A program made the translations under genes and the position numbers. The notes under the pieces were generated by a model, which saw nothing but the letters and a program-made list of their open reading frames with translations, was not told where the DNA came from and did no database searches. 10,561 bases of DNA from an uncultured Alistipes sp. (GTDB lineage: Bacteria; Bacteroidota; Bacteroidia; Bacteroidales; Rikenellaceae), in the NCBI GenBank assembly GCA_947174575.1, contig CAMWJM010000020.1, positions 1-10,561 of the forward strand, given 5' to 3'. Position 1 is the first letter of the stretch; each line of letters starts with the position of its first letter. This document shows, one piece after another, positions 2,393-9,485 of this stretch.

Positions 2393-2905
2393 GTGGCTGC
2401 ACGTAAAAAAGCGAAACAGCGAGAAAAAGAAACCGATCTGCAAAGTCGTCAAGAGCGAGACAAACTCATATGTTACCGTTATGCCCAATGCCGTAATGCA
2501 AGCACTGTAGGCAAGGAGTTCGGCGTGAGCCGCATGTATGTTACCCGTGCTTGGGGCCGGTTATCCGAAGACGAGCAGAATGCGTTGCTCGACACCTCGC
2601 AACAGGTTGATGAGGAGCTGAACCAGAAGATTCTCGATGCCGAGCGGATTGCCGGCGATGCTTTTGTCCGGAAGATCGTGCAGGCCCGGGAGATCGCGGC
2701 CGAGGAACTGCTGCGGCGTTTTACAGGCCCGAATATCAAAATGATTTCCAATAAAGACTTCACCTCCATGCTGCGACTTATAGCGGCCATATCCGCAACG
2801 GAGAAAGCCGATGAACACACCGAAACGCAAGACACATTCAGGTTGCACCGCGAATCCATCCGCGAAGACATAGATAATCCTCAAAACATCGATAGCCATG
2901 AATAA
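2393..2905 (+). CDS. Helix-turn-helix phage protein, possible small terminase subunit
   Basis: A basic N-terminus (ARKKAKQREKE) precedes a helix-turn-helix of the form NASTVGKEFGVSRMYVTRAW, about 37-56 residues after this start. A long charged helical region follows, then an acidic tail. A sequence-specific DNA-binding role is well supported. Small terminase is plausible because such proteins combine an HTH with a helical oligomerisation region, but no large terminase is present here to confirm it, and a regulator of the late genes fits equally. No in-frame ATG exists upstream. A TTG at 2360 would give 181 residues but lies inside the -7 box at 2355-2362, so I prefer the GTG at 2393 (170 residues), preceded by the A-rich leader AAAAGAA. 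The C-terminus overlaps the next gene's ATG by 8 bases. Confidence 0.75.
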   Translation: MAARKKAKQREKETDLQSRQERDKLICYRYAQCRNASTVGKEFGVSRMYVTRAWGRLSEDEQNALLDTSQQVDEELNQKILDAERIAGDAFVRKIVQAREIAAEELLRRFTGPNIKMISNKDFTSMLRLIAAISATEKADEHTETQDTFRLHRESIREDIDNPQNIDSHE

Positions 2906-5696
2906 GAAAAACAATCGCATCCAGACTTCTTTGCCCATCACTGGTCTCGATATCTCCACGCCGGATAACCTTGTTGCCGACGGCAAGCAATCGACCCTCC
3001 ATAATGCGCGATTCTCGGGGAGTGCATGGCGAAATATTCGGCCCTTTGCATTTGAGGATGTCACGGTTCCAAGTGAACTTTCGGGGATAGAGATTATCTA
3101 TCATCATCCGGCTGCGGGTGATAATACCAACATTGCATCCCGTCCTATGAACAACGGAATGATAGATCTTTATTTTATAAAAATCGAAGATTCCTCCATG
3201 GTCGGAACCGTCATTGCATCTGCATTGCCGCCAAAGATCAAAATATCGCACTTCGGGAATATCCTTATTGTAGCAGATGTTATCAATGAAGTTGTTAGTT
3301 ATTATTATTTTAACTCTGGAGCATATGAGAAGTTTTCAGTTCCGAAACCGCCCGTGATTGGGGTCAAATCAAACTATCAAAACAACATATCTAACTTGGG
3401 TCGCACACTTCAGTTTGTCGGAACGGTAAATGACAATAATCGTATTCCCTTTTTCGACATGCAAAATGGGACATTCTATTTTCCTCAATATTCAGAGAAT
3501 GGCGGATTCTGGGGTGAAATATGCTATTTCGCAGCATTTCAAATGAGTGACGGAACAATTTTGGCTCCATCCGCTTTACATATTTGTTCGTCAGAACCAT
3601 TAGATTGCTCACAAGAAAGCCGGAGATTCGAGTTTGGCGATAATGAAATAATGAGAGTAGCTCTTTTTTATATTGATAAAAACAACAAGAAAATATTCAT
3701 CGAACCTATTGCCGTACAAGAAGATGATGACTTCAAATATCCAAATTTCAAATCTACTGTTTATAATGCAACTGTTCGACAACACATAAGAATAAGTTTA
3801 GCTAACACTTGGATTAAACGTACAATAGGAAGCACTACTGCTTACACCGCCAAAGTAGATGTGAATGATACATTGATAACACATGTCAATATATATTCTA
3901 CACGAATCAATCCGCTCTGGGATGCTGAAAAATTAAAGAACCCTCCTGTTCGTGGCGAGCTAATAGACTACGACTCGGCAAATGCGTCAAATAACCATGT
4001 TGCAGTCAATAGCTGGGTTGCCGATATGAGAAAATATCGTATTGACAATAAATTACCCGAGCAACCTTTTTATTTGATAAAATCGATTCCTATTGATTCT
4101 TTCGAGCATAGCACAATGCAATATCCTGAACCCTATGAATCCCCCTGGGATTATTCGGGAAACCCTGGAACATCCTATGTGGACATTGTTTTGGATAAAG
4201 AAACATTGGATAATATCGAGATGAAACCCATGTACGATCCAATTAACGTTCACCGCACTTATTACGATTCATTAAAGATATACAATGACCGTGTACATAT
4301 AGGGGGAAGAATCAAGACAACGCTATTTAAGGGGTTCGCAAATGGGTTCTTTGCGAATTGTCCTCAAAGTGGTGACTATATGATGACGACAGTACTCAAT
4401 ATTGACAATGAGGAATATCATGCAAATGCACCAACAAATTACACATTATCTAATGCTATATATTCTCGGATTCTTTCATACCCGGACTATAGAGCGAAAA
4501 AGATATACGATTTATTAGAAAATAAAATAATTGGTAGCGTTGATCTTATAGAAGCAAAGGCAAATAACTTTGCTTATGCCTATGCTGATACATCAAGTAA
4601 AGGAGAACTTCTTCACTTCAATCGGAATATAACAGGTATACCTGGAGTTACTACTCTTGCATATGAGTTCTATTATGTGAAAAATCCCGTTGATTTCAGT
4701 GCTATTATTAAAACGCCAAATGTGAAACGCTCATTGAGCGAGATGAAAAATTGGTATGTCGAATATAATAAGATTCTTGTTTCTGCTTCAAACAATCCAT
4801 TATCATTTCCGCTGGGCAACAGCTATGTTATAGGTACGGATTCAAATCGCATTCTTGCACTCAACTCCGCCGCCTTGGAGATGTCAGATGCCAAGTTCGG
4901 CGAGTTTCCGCTTTACGTATTCACGGAGGAAGGTATCTTCACGCTGCAGTCCGGCAGCGGCGAGGTGCTGTATAGTGCCGTCATTCCCCTCAACTACGAC
5001 CGCATCATCAATCCCGATACGCTGGCTGTGAACTACAACGTGATCTACATTACAGAGCGCGGCATCCATGCGTTGTTCTCGAACGAATCATCTCTTATTT
5101 CGGGGCCAATCAACGACAGCAACAACCATCCTCTACTCGATTTCCTGCGCACCGCACACTTATGCTACCAGCATATCAACAACGAGGTAATGGTCTACAA
5201 TACGGAGGAGAAGAGCAACCGAGCATTCGTTTTCTCTCTGGACAACAAAACGTGGTCTACACGACAGTTCGTCGGAACCAAGATCAATAACGACGACATC
5301 ATCTTTCCGCGAACGGACGACCGAATTCGCATTCAGCGGTTGAACGAAGAGATCGCGCCGAGCGCGCATCCGGACGGTTCTGTTTTCGTGAAGTTCGTGT
5401 CGCGGCCCATAAAGCTCGGATCGATGGAGTTCAAACGCCTGGAGACGTTCATCGCACGGTTAGTCGCCTCGGGAAGCTATTCGACGACGATCACGCTGGA
5501 GGGTTCCGTAGATCTGAAAACGTGGATAACGCTGCGCGAAGTTGCTACATCTGCCGATCGGGACATCTCCATCCGGCGCACACCGAATTCGTTTCGCTAT
5601 CTGCGAGCCTCGTTTAGCGTCATAGTTCCGGACGATTTCGAATTATCGGGCTATGACCTTGAATACTACACGCGATTCCTGCACCGATTGAGATAA
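2898..5696 (+). CDS. Tail nozzle / packaged-DNA stabilisation-like protein, 932 aa
   Basis: The N-terminus has the pattern GLDISTPDNLVADGKQSTLH followed by a motif with WRNIRPF. I associate this with the large beta-rich stabilisation or nozzle proteins of Bacteroidales podovirus-like and crAss-like phages, analogous in role to P22 gp10 and T7 gp12. These sit below the portal, close the tail channel and hold the packaged DNA. The C-terminus also fits: SRPIKLGSMEFKRLE, then a short beta domain with GSVDLKTWITL, ending in FLHRLR. The residues are mostly beta-strand-forming, with no signal peptide or membrane segment. Composition is mosaic: sampled 60-base lines are 58% GC at 2941-3000, 28% at 3661-3720, 35% at 4441-4500, 62% at 4921-4980 and 53% at 5461-5520. 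The gene is followed 4 bases later by the zincin gene. Confidence 0.78.
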   Translation: MNKKNNRIQTSLPITGLDISTPDNLVADGKQSTLHNARFSGSAWRNIRPFAFEDVTVPSELSGIEIIYHHPAAGDNTNIASRPMNNGMIDLYFIKIEDSSMVGTVIASALPPKIKISHFGNILIVADVINEVVSYYYFNSGAYEKFSVPKPPVIGVKSNYQNNISNLGRTLQFVGTVNDNNRIPFFDMQNGTFYFPQYSENGGFWGEICYFAAFQMSDGTILAPSALHICSSEPLDCSQESRRFEFGDNEIMRVALFYIDKNNKKIFIEPIAVQEDDDFKYPNFKSTVYNATVRQHIRISLANTWIKRTIGSTTAYTAKVDVNDTLITHVNIYSTRINPLWDAEKLKNPPVRGELIDYDSANASNNHVAVNSWVADMRKYRIDNKLPEQPFYLIKSIPIDSFEHSTMQYPEPYESPWDYSGNPGTSYVDIVLDKETLDNIEMKPMYDPINVHRTYYDSLKIYNDRVHIGGRIKTTLFKGFANGFFANCPQSGDYMMTTVLNIDNEEYHANAPTNYTLSNAIYSRILSYPDYRAKKIYDLLENKIIGSVDLIEAKANNFAYAYADTSSKGELLHFNRNITGIPGVTTLAYEFYYVKNPVDFSAIIKTPNVKRSLSEMKNWYVEYNKILVSASNNPLSFPLGNSYVIGTDSNRILALNSAALEMSDAKFGEFPLYVFTEEGIFTLQSGSGEVLYSAVIPLNYDRIINPDTLAVNYNVIYITERGIHALFSNESSLISGPINDSNNHPLLDFLRTAHLCYQHINNEVMVYNTEEKSNRAFVFSLDNKTWSTRQFVGTKINNDDIIFPRTDDRIRIQRLNEEIAPSAHPDGSVFVKFVSRPIKLGSMEFKRLETFIARLVASGSYSTTITLEGSVDLKTWITLREVATSADRDISIRRTPNSFRYLRASFSVIVPDDFELSGYDLEYYTRFLHRLR

Positions 5697-7263: not shown

Positions 7264-7659
7264 TTATCTATTTTTGAAGTGTTCGATGATTTCCGCGACC
7301 GTAGCCTTGTGATATAGTGCATAACTTGGGATCACCATTTTCGTAACAACTTCGTCATGGCACAAGCACCAATCGATACCATCCGTAAACCACTGCTCAC
7401 AGTCATTATAGACATTCATTGCGGCCAGCGCCTTGAACAGCTCGACGTTGGTGCCGCAGTCGACTATCCCCCAGGATACGAGTGTCGCACTCATATTCTC
7501 TACCTCCAGTGCTTCCCATTGGGTTTGCGTGATCCCAACGACCACTATGCAATCGTAGAAGTGTATTTGTGGGTACTTCAACGAAAAGCACCAGTTTATC
7601 AAACTACATCGCTCCTCCACATTCTCAACGCGGATAAAGCAGGGGGTTGTAAATTTCAT
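7264..7659 (-). CDS. Conserved phage hypothetical protein, 131 aa
   Basis: The protein begins MKFTTPCFIRVENVEERCSL and ends YHKATVAEIIEHFKNR, a pattern I associate with small Bacteroidales phage proteins that open MKFT.PCFIRV and close KAT..E(I/L)IEHF. It has several aromatic residues and cysteines, including WCLC at about 96-99, but no clear metal site. There is no membrane segment or signal peptide. The start overlaps the methyltransferase stop as TAATG, which implies coupled translation. Function unknown. Confidence 0.8.
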   Translation of the reverse strand: MKFTTPCFIRVENVEERCSLINWCFSLKYPQIHFYDCIVVVGITQTQWEALEVENMSATLVSWGIVDCGTNVELFKALAAMNVYNDCEQWFTDGIDWCLCHDEVVTKMVIPSYALYHKATVAEIIEHFKNR

Positions 7660-8729
7660 TATCTTTCGTATTCGTTAATCGTTTCTGCAATCTGATAGAA
7701 CACCTGCGGGACTATCGCGTTTCCGTAGGCTTTGATGGACTGGCGACGCCATGCAGGAAAGGTGATACCGTCCAATCCGGCGGAAAGCCCATCATCTCCG
7801 CCACAAACAGGGGGTTGAGTTGGGAAGTTTTCCCAGGCCTCTGCCGGCAGTGTTCGCCGATCAGCACGGGCAAGTTGCTCAGCATATCCGTCCGCAACTT
7901 CCCGTCTTTCCGAATCAATGCGGCCGGCGATACTGATGACTTGAAGTCGCGGGCTTTCGGTGTCGGCAGCAGAGACATCGTTGCTGCTTTCGCCAGCGTT
8001 GGGCGTTCTGCGCTCCCCGGCGACAGGCTTTTGTTGACGCGGCCCGACCCTGAATCTATAGCCGTCGGTGTCGGCAGCAGCGCCGTGCTCATAGGCCTGC
8101 TCTTGCCGTTTTCGCAGACCTTCAGACCCTGTGTCTGCACGGTTGGCAAAAGAGCCGTCACGGAGTATGGATTCAGGTTGCTCATGATCTTCCGCGTTCG
8201 CTCGGGGTTGCCGTTCGGTTTGCGCCGATCCTCCATCACGGCGGGCGTGGGCAACAATCCAGACGCGGTCTCGCCGGTGGGGAGCGCCGACAGCACAAGC
8301 TGGAAGTATAAACGGCTGGACTTCGTAGCCGAGAGCTTCCAGGTCAGCGAACACCGTGTCGAGAACCATGCTCTCCGACCAATTAACGAATCCGCGAACG
8401 TTCTCGCCCACGACCCAGCGGGGGAGAATCTCGCGAATTGCTCGCAGCATCTCCGGCCAGAGATAGCGGTCGTCGTCCGTTCCCTTTCGCTTGCCGGCGA
8501 CGCTGAACGGCTGGCATGGAAAACCTCCTGTGAGGACGTCGATGCGGCCCCGCCAAACGGTAAAGTCAGTTGTTCGGATGTCTTCATATTGGACAGCATT
8601 CGGAAAGTGATACTTCAGTACGCGGCGGCAGAACGCGTCGATCTCGCAGTTGAACATATTCGTCCAGCCTGCCCATTCGGCTGCGAGGTCGAAGCCGCCG
8701 ATTCCGCTGAATAAGGATGCGTGCGTCAT
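7659..8729 (-). CDS. DNA (cytosine-5) methyltransferase, phage orphan type, 356 aa
   Basis: The enzyme transfers a methyl group from S-adenosylmethionine to C5 of cytosine in DNA, most likely to shield phage DNA from restriction. Motif I is FSGIGGFD (7-14); motif IV GGFPCQPFS (68-76) has the catalytic Cys72; motif VI is ENVR (109-112); motif VIII lies in HRRDRVWIVA (151-160); motifs IX/X are at RQSIKAYGNAIVPQV (329-343). All catalytic residues are present, so an active enzyme is expected. Residues about 161-300, where the target-recognition domain belongs, are unusually polar, with repeated ADT-type units (198-200, 219-221, 255-257). This is also where a second frame runs on the same strand. 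No restriction endonuclease gene is adjacent. The ATG at 8729 is 30 bases after the previous stop. Confidence 0.95.
   Translation of the reverse strand: MTHASLFSGIGGFDLAAEWAGWTNMFNCEIDAFCRRVLKYHFPNAVQYEDIRTTDFTVWRGRIDVLTGGFPCQPFSVAGKRKGTDDDRYLWPEMLRAIREILPRWVVGENVRGFVNWSESMVLDTVFADLEALGYEVQPFILPACAVGAPHRRDRVWIVAHARRDGGSAQTERQPRANAEDHEQPESILRDGSFANRADTGSEGLRKRQEQAYEHGAAADTDGYRFRVGPRQQKPVAGERRTPNAGESSNDVSAADTESPRLQVISIAGRIDSERREVADGYAEQLARADRRTLPAEAWENFPTQPPVCGGDDGLSAGLDGITFPAWRRQSIKAYGNAIVPQVFYQIAETINEYER
7712..8587 (-). CDS. Candidate overprinted ORF nested inside the methyltransferase gene, 291 aa
   Basis: This frame, shifted +1 relative to the methyltransferase and on the same strand, is open from ATG 8587 (or ATG 8599, four codons earlier) to TAG 7712-7714. 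It starts MKTSEQLTLPFGG, then STSSQEVFHASRS and TAISGRR, followed by an aromatic and basic region with STRCSLTWKLSATKSSRLYF. LLPT occurs four times (about residues 111, 146, 170 and 206 from the 8587 start), three times as LLPTP. Near the end it has LNPLFVAEMMGFPPDWT. This pattern (S.SW or LTWK core, repeated LLPTP, terminal LNP...MGFP..W) matches proteins I remember from many phages, often mislabelled as methyltransferases. It lacks the catalytic PCQ motif. It may be a real overprinted gene, or its apparent conservation may simply shadow the methyltransferase. Confidence 0.5.
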   Translation of the reverse strand: MKTSEQLTLPFGGAASTSSQEVFHASRSASPASERERTTTAISGRRCCEQFARFSPAGSWARTFADSLIGRRAWFSTRCSLTWKLSATKSSRLYFQLVLSALPTGETASGLLPTPAVMEDRRKPNGNPERTRKIMSNLNPYSVTALLPTVQTQGLKVCENGKSRPMSTALLPTPTAIDSGSGRVNKSLSPGSAERPTLAKAATMSLLPTPKARDFKSSVSPAALIRKDGKLRTDMLSNLPVLIGEHCRQRPGKTSQLNPLFVAEMMGFPPDWTVSPFLHGVASPSKPTETR

Positions 8730-8759: not shown

Positions 8760-9485
8760 TCACTTGACATTCCGGACGCAGCGCACGGACAAGCCGTACT
8801 CACAGGAGCTATTATTATCCGGGCACACACGATCCGAATCGAAGCCAAGACAGCCCTCGTAGACATCACCCGCTGCATGGGACGATGACGACACCCAGTA
8901 GATGCCCCACGTGCCGACGTACGACAAGGCTCCCGTCGCGAAGTGGCGGACGCCCGCGGCCTCAAGAAAGAGGCCGCCGCCGAATAGACGCCCGGACAAC
9001 CTATGGGGGCCGTTCTCCTGCCATTCGCTACCCAGGTCGGCGACGACCTTCCGTTCTTCGGGTTTGGGTAATCTCCAGCCATTCCCCAACTGCTTGACCG
9101 CCTCAACAACCTCGTCGTAGGTGTAATACCAGCGGCCGTCTACCTCCGTACCGCCGAAGCCCGTCAAGTTCTCCGTCATCCATTCGAGATTGGGCAGGCC
9201 CGGCAGGATGATCGTATCGCGAGCTTTCTCCTCGGATTTCGATTGCCCGATATTGCACGGGGCAGTCTCTGGTCGTGATTCGGACTGCTCGGCCTCCTCG
9301 TACGTTTCGAGCGGACACCAGTCGGGGATTTTTAGAAAGTGTTTCGGCCCGTCAAATCCAGCTAATCGGCAAGGATTTACCCGCGTACAAATGCGTGCAG
9401 GGATTTTATTAATATCCTCATGGATGTATTTTTCGCAAAACATGCAATCTATGCAGCTGTCAATTATGTTTTCAATCTTTCTCAT
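8760..9485 (-). CDS. Cys-rich head fused to FISUMP/C-type-lectin-like domain, 241 aa; DGR-target-like
   Basis: Residues about 8-60 carry cysteines at 11, 14, 17, 33, 39 and 57 (CIDCMFC, then CTRVNPCRL, then PDWCPL), a probable metal-binding module seen in small Bacteroidales phage proteins. A linker rich in Glu and Ser follows. From about 94 the sequence is typical of the FISUMP / lectin-fold family: LEWMTENLTGFGG, then GRWYYTYDE, NGWRLPKPEE, LFLEAAGVR, GALSYVGTWGIYWVSSSS, ending YGLSVRCVRNVK. Such domains in Bacteroidales phages are often targets of diversity-generating retroelements, which vary ligand-contact residues near the C-terminus. Variable-looking positions here mostly use codons ending in C or T, as expected from AAC/AAT template codons. 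No reverse transcriptase or template repeat is visible in the window. Confidence 0.8.
   Translation of the reverse strand: MRKIENIIDSCIDCMFCEKYIHEDINKIPARICTRVNPCRLAGFDGPKHFLKIPDWCPLETYEEAEQSESRPETAPCNIGQSKSEEKARDTIILPGLPNLEWMTENLTGFGGTEVDGRWYYTYDEVVEAVKQLGNGWRLPKPEERKVVADLGSEWQENGPHRLSGRLFGGGLFLEAAGVRHFATGALSYVGTWGIYWVSSSSHAAGDVYEGCLGFDSDRVCPDNNSSCEYGLSVRCVRNVK

Follow-up and report, generated by a model that had tools for sequence, protein, structure and literature searches.

Few gene pairs in prokaryotes are known to be long, fully nested on one strand and of clear function, and a locus from an uncultured Alistipes sp. raises the question of whether it holds one. In the 10,561-nucleotide stretch of contig CAMWJM010000020.1 analysed here (hereafter, the window), in which several open reading frames (ORFs) match phage families, a C5-cytosine DNA methyltransferase gene (alpha) encloses on its own strand a second long ORF (beta). 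Is beta a protein gene or a shadow of alpha's codons, and, if it is a gene, what does its product do? The evidence, drawn from comparison of sequences, says that the nested frame is a protein gene and not a shadow ORF, and we consider it likely that the products of alpha and beta are the two subunits, read from one gene, of an enzyme of the M.EcoHK31I kind, a two-part C5-cytosine DNA methyltransferase.

A nested frame with its own selection

Beta occupies positions 7712–8599 of the minus strand within the alpha ORF (7659–8729, 356 amino acids) and lies in frame +1, so that alpha codon positions 1, 2 and 3 are beta positions 3, 1 and 2. An original prediction, made from the letters of the window alone, had placed a 295-codon open +1 frame here, and the frame was found there, beginning with ATG; the ATG codons at 8599 and 8587, giving 295 and 291 amino acids, are both candidate starts, each with counterparts among relatives. 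The LLPT unit that had been counted four times in this frame does head each of four blocks, and its pairing with VAHA or ADT in the methyltransferase frame is correct: GCTGCCGACACC reads AADT in the alpha frame and LPT in the beta frame. The ending given for the protein, LNPLFVAEMMGFPPDWT, is present but is followed by 18 further residues. Alpha matches PF00145 (E 1.1e-45, residues 1–193) and TIGR00675 (E 2.5e-39, residues 4–351) and is intact at the catalytic site, GGFPCQP.

Selection was measured as N/S: among changes that are nonsynonymous in one of the two frames, the ratio of nonsynonymous to synonymous change in the other. Because relatives are not independent, 308 usable pairs were reduced for the main test to 37 disjoint pairs of relatives, a set to which the window does not belong. 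The flanks of beta served as internal controls: N/S was 0.10 for alpha and 1.27 for beta before beta begins, and 0.09 and 0.76 past its stop. Over alpha motifs IV–VIII the values were 0.15 for alpha and 0.50 for beta (bootstrap 0.42–0.61). Over the LLPT region the relation was reversed, with 1.46 for alpha (bootstrap 1.00–2.42) and 0.16 for beta (0.11–0.21), and over the last 40 beta codons it was 0.40 and 0.27. This pattern held at transition weights 1 and 4, and a beta-guided alignment gave much the same ratios in the overlap. The affected parts of the window, all on the minus strand, are as follows, with beta units assigned by clustering.

7659–8729, minus strand: alpha, probable C5-cytosine methyltransferase large subunit, with motifs I–VIII and X and without motif IX (alignment A1)
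7712–8599, minus strand: beta, probable nested second subunit in frame +1, with a PHROG match, database relatives and own-frame constraint in relatives
8258–8587, minus strand: N-terminal part of beta, over alpha motifs IV–VIII, with conserved columns in beta alignment A3
8153–8257, minus strand: beta unit of type I, LLPTPAVMEDRR...
8081–8152, minus strand: beta unit of type A, LLPTVQTQGLK..., a type present in 98 of 222 betas
7973–8080, minus strand: beta unit of type B, LLPTPTAIDSGSG..., a type present in 71 of 222 betas
7820–7972, minus strand: beta unit of type D, LLPTPKARDFK..., extending to motif IX, a type present in 26 of 222 betas
7772–7819, minus strand: motif IX in the beta frame, LNPLFVAEMMGFPPDW, assigned by profile comparisons
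7830–8243, minus strand: alpha residues 163–300 with the ADT repeats, read as a linker, as the corresponding region of relatives is unconstrained in alpha
7701–7739, minus strand: motif X in the alpha frame, SIKAYGNAIVPQV, conserved in A1, with alpha constrained past the beta stop in relatives

In the LLPT region the most variable sites are alpha first positions, which are beta third positions. Given a selected beta frame and an unconstrained alpha over the repeats, the ADT repeats of alpha are a shadow of the LLPT repeats of beta. The original prediction had suggested that the second frame may shape the target-recognition region of the methyltransferase; that part stands, and the result goes further, with alpha itself the shadow there. 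Against its closest relative found, from the same genus, the window differs at alpha positions 1, 2 and 3 by 3, 2 and 12 changes before beta, 1, 1 and 4 after beta, and 7, 2 and 4 over the beta C terminus, which leans towards beta; in the array, which is poorly alignable, the counts are 28, 23 and 20.

Relatives and architectures

Of 6065 database candidates, 3167 are relatives of beta at E ≤ 0.001, and beta matches phrog_1008, labelled 'DNA methyltransferase' (E 7.3e-24). All 80 viral loci kept from the beta search carry it in frame +1 of an alpha gene, in a set selected through beta. A second set was chosen through an alpha alignment built from alphas that have a beta, plus L092, and comprised the best 80 viral and best 80 genome loci among the matches listed. 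Here a beta homologue was nested in frame +1 in 152 of 160 loci (79 of 80 viral and 73 of 80 genome); the remaining eight were six partial overlaps (one viral, five genome), a frame-fused ORF (L222) and a locus without overlap (L232). Architecture classes were assigned over 291 loci, 19 of them falling under 'unresolved' and 12 under 'other'. They include split relatives (L221, L297, L303, L306 and L300) and single-ORF relatives, in which beta-type sequence is fused in frame with motifs I–VIII and X.

The original prediction of a fully overprinted gene pair is thus supported, and the results that it had named as counting against the pair did not turn up. Homologues exist beyond the nested overlaps, in single-ORF, partly overlapping and separate forms. 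Frequent stops in close relatives were not seen, the closest relative found having both frames open; of 36 stops in the beta frame within relatives' matches, 33 lie past motif IX and 3 near the N terminus. A count of alpha-frame stops given an open beta came to zero, but the construction of the set forces that value, and it carries no weight here. Alpha third positions are less variable inside the overlap, with differences per codon of 0.179 in region M and 0.140 in region C, against 0.317 and 0.387 outside it, over the 37 pairs.

A quick tree of alpha N-terminal parts (153 rows), which gives no direction of change between architectures, has a fully supported branch that separates 132 of 133 nested rows and the split L221 from the single, split and separate rows and the nested L255. 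By record title, the nested loci in the tree come from Bacteroidota, Bacillota, Pseudomonadota, Planctomycetota, Acidobacteriota, Chloroflexota, Verrucomicrobiota, Gemmatimonadota and three candidate phyla, so that the nested form occurs in at least eleven bacterial phyla as titled, many of these loci being metagenome bins. In the host family of the window genome, beta was found in 7 of 150 genomes, a patchy distribution that fits a mobile gene.

Annotation of such loci varies. In Paenibacillus phage Diva the nested frame is already annotated as an internal gene, DIVA_50; in Bacteroides phage BS-TP4 alpha is annotated and beta is not; and in a Porphyromonas phage record (L093:2421-3287) beta (2599-3213) is a hypothetical protein and the surrounding alpha frame is unannotated. 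Four loci (L257, L259, L267 and L281) encode a single-ORF enzyme, yet hold a beta N-terminal part and units in frame +1, as if indels had exchanged the frames.

Motif IX and the proposed enzyme

Nested betas (A3) and the split and single forms (A5) align in profile comparison with a probability of 98.7% (E 4.2e-16, 22 columns), and A5 in turn matches canonical motif IX–X at 67.9% (E 4.8e-5). By these comparisons motif IX is present in beta; alpha lacks it. On the reading that we favour, alpha would be the catalytic core (motifs I–VIII and X) with an unconstrained linker between VIII and X, and ribosomes would start beta inside alpha by internal initiation in frame +1. Beta probably docks on alpha through its N-terminal part, and the two chains would assemble into an active enzyme joining the alpha core, the motif IX of beta and a beta array that may serve target choice by reading DNA. 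A phage could use such an enzyme to mark or protect its own DNA.

The nearest likeness is M.EcoHK31I, a two-polypeptide enzyme of specificity YGGCCR. Its small-subunit gene reportedly lies inside the large one in another frame, a finding ascribed to Lee, Kam and Shaw in 1995, and by this layout it resembles the present pair. The likeness is one of layout; the present pair differs in that, from motif VIII to motif X, selection acts on beta rather than on alpha, and in that beta has an array of exchangeable units. A passage of PMC3404938 assigns motifs I–VIII and X and a predicted target-recognition domain (TRD) to the large subunit of M.EcoHK31I and motif IX to the small one, a division of motifs like that between alpha and beta, and a passage of PMC3439449 calls the enzyme naturally split. 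M.AquI (CYCGRG) is, in a passage of PMC3404938, split within the variable region with motifs IX–X in the distal part, as in our split relatives. In the window, by contrast, the alpha frame carries motif X and one gene lies wholly inside the other.

The C5 methyltransferases of phages SPR and phi3T are multispecific single chains with tandem target-recognition domains. Like them, the present pair has a modular variable region, in which blocks ahead of motif IX can be exchanged; unlike them, it has its array in a second frame, and the role of that array in reading DNA is putative. PHROG 1008 and DIVA_50 belong to the same protein family as beta, and their labels state no mechanism and no array. 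The two-frame layout therefore belongs to a kind already known. Not known to us from that kind are its wide spread, the switch of the selected frame in mid-gene and the modular array.

A modular array of LLPT units

Cutting at LLPT-like heads gave 0–5 units per beta in 218 betas with a recognizable motif IX, 27 of 245 loci being left out because the pattern used did not recognize that motif. In a set of 222 betas (102 aligned betas and 120 database proteins among the matches listed) there were up to 7 units per beta, with recurring unit types that form 114 different arrays when untyped units are counted as one kind. Among 206 distinct betas, 448 unit pairs were at least 70% identical outside the head while the beta N-terminal parts were less than 55% identical, and in 350 of these pairs the two units differed in position or in the length of their arrays. 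The opposite case, N-terminal parts at least 85% identical with a unit in common and at least one unit lacking a counterpart, was seen in 99 pairs from 38 loci; what separates L019 from L048 is a single inserted unit. The closest relative found for the window, with nearly identical flanking DNA, has unit A and one other where the window has I-A-B-D, and host-family relatives show further arrays. In these alignments, units are gained, lost and exchanged as whole blocks among relatives, and such events alter only the length and letters of the unconstrained stretch of alpha.

What the units do is less certain. The array lies between motifs VIII and IX, the usual place of the target-recognition domain in C5 methyltransferases, and the LPT[PVL] unit heads share a few residues with the TL motif P(STCA)PT(ILV)(TASV), a faint likeness to a motif that, in a passage of PMC2413257, belongs to recognition domains. 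From place, conservation, exchange and this likeness, we give the recognition of DNA by LLPT units about an even chance. The fuller proposal is that beta is a combinatorial specificity subunit in a second frame: each LLPT unit would be a small DNA-recognition module, the array would set which sites the shared alpha core methylates, and alpha would cross the array as a free linker, its frame open for no other reason than to reach motif X. We regard this proposal as evenly poised between right and wrong.

The strongest competing account, a real contender that falls a little short of even, takes the LLPT units for spacers or docking sites, or for decoys that act, for instance, against host restriction or sensing, and places target choice elsewhere in beta or in alpha. 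It gains from the 9 of 218 betas without units by the cutting rule, from a single-chain relative (L309, 275 amino acids) without LLPT units, and from the structure model of L262, in which units fall mostly below 50 in predicted local distance difference test score (pLDDT) and another conserved stretch before motif IX is confident, all of which count against a recognition role; the TRD predicted in the large subunit of M.EcoHK31I, in the passage cited above, points the same way. Such roles fit less well with strongly constrained units that lie between motifs VIII and IX, pass between relatives as entire blocks and faintly resemble the TL motif at their heads.

Stops in alpha and other contrary evidence

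Several observations weigh against a two-subunit enzyme, the first being stops in alpha. Among 247 loci, 11 have alpha interrupted within its N-terminal part by an in-frame stop with beta open, and 9 of the 11 stops are at one place, GGFP-stop-x-CQP, where six or nine bases are inserted directly before the catalytic cysteine codon and beta is open through the insertion. A scan of viral contigs, some identical with those of the first set, for any six-base insertion at this site returned 22 stretches, 21 of them in methyltransferase context; all 21 insertions begin with a stop (TAA 16, TGA 4, TAG 1), and the 22nd, outside that context, begins with TCA. Loci with a stop at this site are L035, L043, L045, L047, L056, L074, L132, L136, L138 and L340–L361.

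Past the stop, alpha is open for 196–351 codons in 19 distinct loci. It is still constrained there: its N/S, over 41 non-disjoint pairs, is 0.22 to motif VIII, 0.40 near the end of beta and 0.10 after beta; five disjoint pairs give 0.22, 0.38 and 0.43, the last from few changes. The trait requires at least five changes on the quick tree, of which well-supported branches force two. The stop may reflect regulated readthrough or bypassing, or alpha-inactive alleles that exchange with intact ones, and stop-bearing alphas speak against the simple view that alpha and beta chains are made together in every case. L189 and L190 have TGA at a conserved tryptophan site in the alpha N-terminal part, where alpha ends early and beta is open.

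Other contrary points concern the comparisons themselves. Taken by itself, the direct profile comparison of nested beta with canonical motif IX is weak (14%, E 0.002), and Pfam and PDB searches with nested betas, as a single sequence or an alignment, returned no match, the lone weak PDB row being an antibody chain. The PDB search with the split and single alignment likewise gave one irrelevant row only. The structure model of the window beta is poor (mean pLDDT 61, predicted template modelling score 0.27) and, like that of L262, does not fold the units. In the N/S test the unused third frame gives 1.5–3.0, not 1, and it is for this reason that contrasts, not absolute values, count. Between the window and its closest relative, the differences over motifs IV–VIII (2, 1 and 17 at alpha positions 1, 2 and 3) follow an alpha-type pattern only. 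At the tested start site 76 loci have an ATG, and 75 of them lack a Shine-Dalgarno-like sequence. Finally, the TRD predicted in the large subunit of M.EcoHK31I in that passage of PMC3404938 departs from the present case, where an alpha unconstrained between motifs VIII and X in relatives speaks against such a location.

The stop-bearing loci, with beta open in each, are also what favours taking beta as a real protein whose function is unrelated to catalysis by alpha. We find this improbable, as motif IX is in beta and missing from alpha and single-ORF relatives fuse the same kind of sequence in frame with motifs I–VIII and X. A separate phage protein beside the methyltransferase, as originally suggested, is disfavoured, since in single-ORF relatives such sequence stands between motifs VIII and X. 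Most likely, beta completes the enzyme of which alpha is the other part.

Possible expression of the nested frame

Could beta instead be made by programmed frameshifting from alpha? Database proteins P0046 (representing 81 sequences), P0073, P0096, P0110, P0114 and P0115, as well as L222:2950-4068, start as alpha and go on as beta, as such a mechanism would produce. Their break points differ, however, and they may be sequence errors or alpha-inactive alleles. A shifted product would also lack motif X, since nested forms encode it in the alpha frame. This place of motif X, together with the constraint on beta over the motif IV–VIII region, favours internal initiation, and we hold frameshifting to be quite improbable, although the start-codon test is weak. 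The +1 codon at an alpha tyrosine is ATG in 76 of the 199 loci with the motif. An excess of one tyrosine codon at that site (TAT in 92 of 125, against 269 of 431 outside the overlap) was considered as evidence for a beta start; it is small and was not used.

The length of the frame in the window is only modestly unusual, 3.6% of 20,000 synonymous shuffles of alpha reaching its 300 open +1 codons. Among alpha-chosen relatives (155 of the 160 loci, five left out; related loci are not independent), the length goes well past what chance would give: the +1 opening was matched by at most 5% of 300 shuffles in 149 loci and by none in 106, against 5 and 1 of 155 in frame +2. Twelve canonical one-chain C5 methyltransferases, used as controls, have +1 openings of 42–125 codons, 3 of them at 3–4% of shuffles, and no beta match was found in any of their six frames. 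A shadow ORF held open by the codon make-up of the methyltransferase, the rival that the original prediction had set beside its own, can draw on the window shuffles and on a stop-poor +1 frame, but is highly improbable, contradicted as it is by a beta N/S of 0.16–0.50 inside the overlap against 1.27 and 0.76 outside, by an alpha that is unconstrained where beta is most constrained, and by the existence of single-ORF and separate forms.

Other ORFs of the window

8760–9485, minus strand: a 241-amino-acid ORF with sub-threshold Fib_succ_major and Lcl_C matches, the C-terminal coding part of which has nine further DNA matches in the same genome (70–80% identity), a pattern like that of variable lectin-like families
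2898–5696, plus strand: a 932-amino-acid ORF that matches phrog_32516 (unknown function) and is without a Pfam domain

Implications

Annotation tends to drop one member of such a nested pair, as the BS-TP4 and Porphyromonas phage records illustrate, and here each region of the overlap can be assigned to the frame under selection. A further warning is that, where methyltransferases of this type have been annotated, the 'target recognition region' assigned to alpha may be a shadow. If the units read DNA, the family would be a natural parts list of exchangeable cytosine-methylation specificities; and if the combinatorial reading is true, a single gene would carry a modular, quickly reprogrammable methylation specificity.
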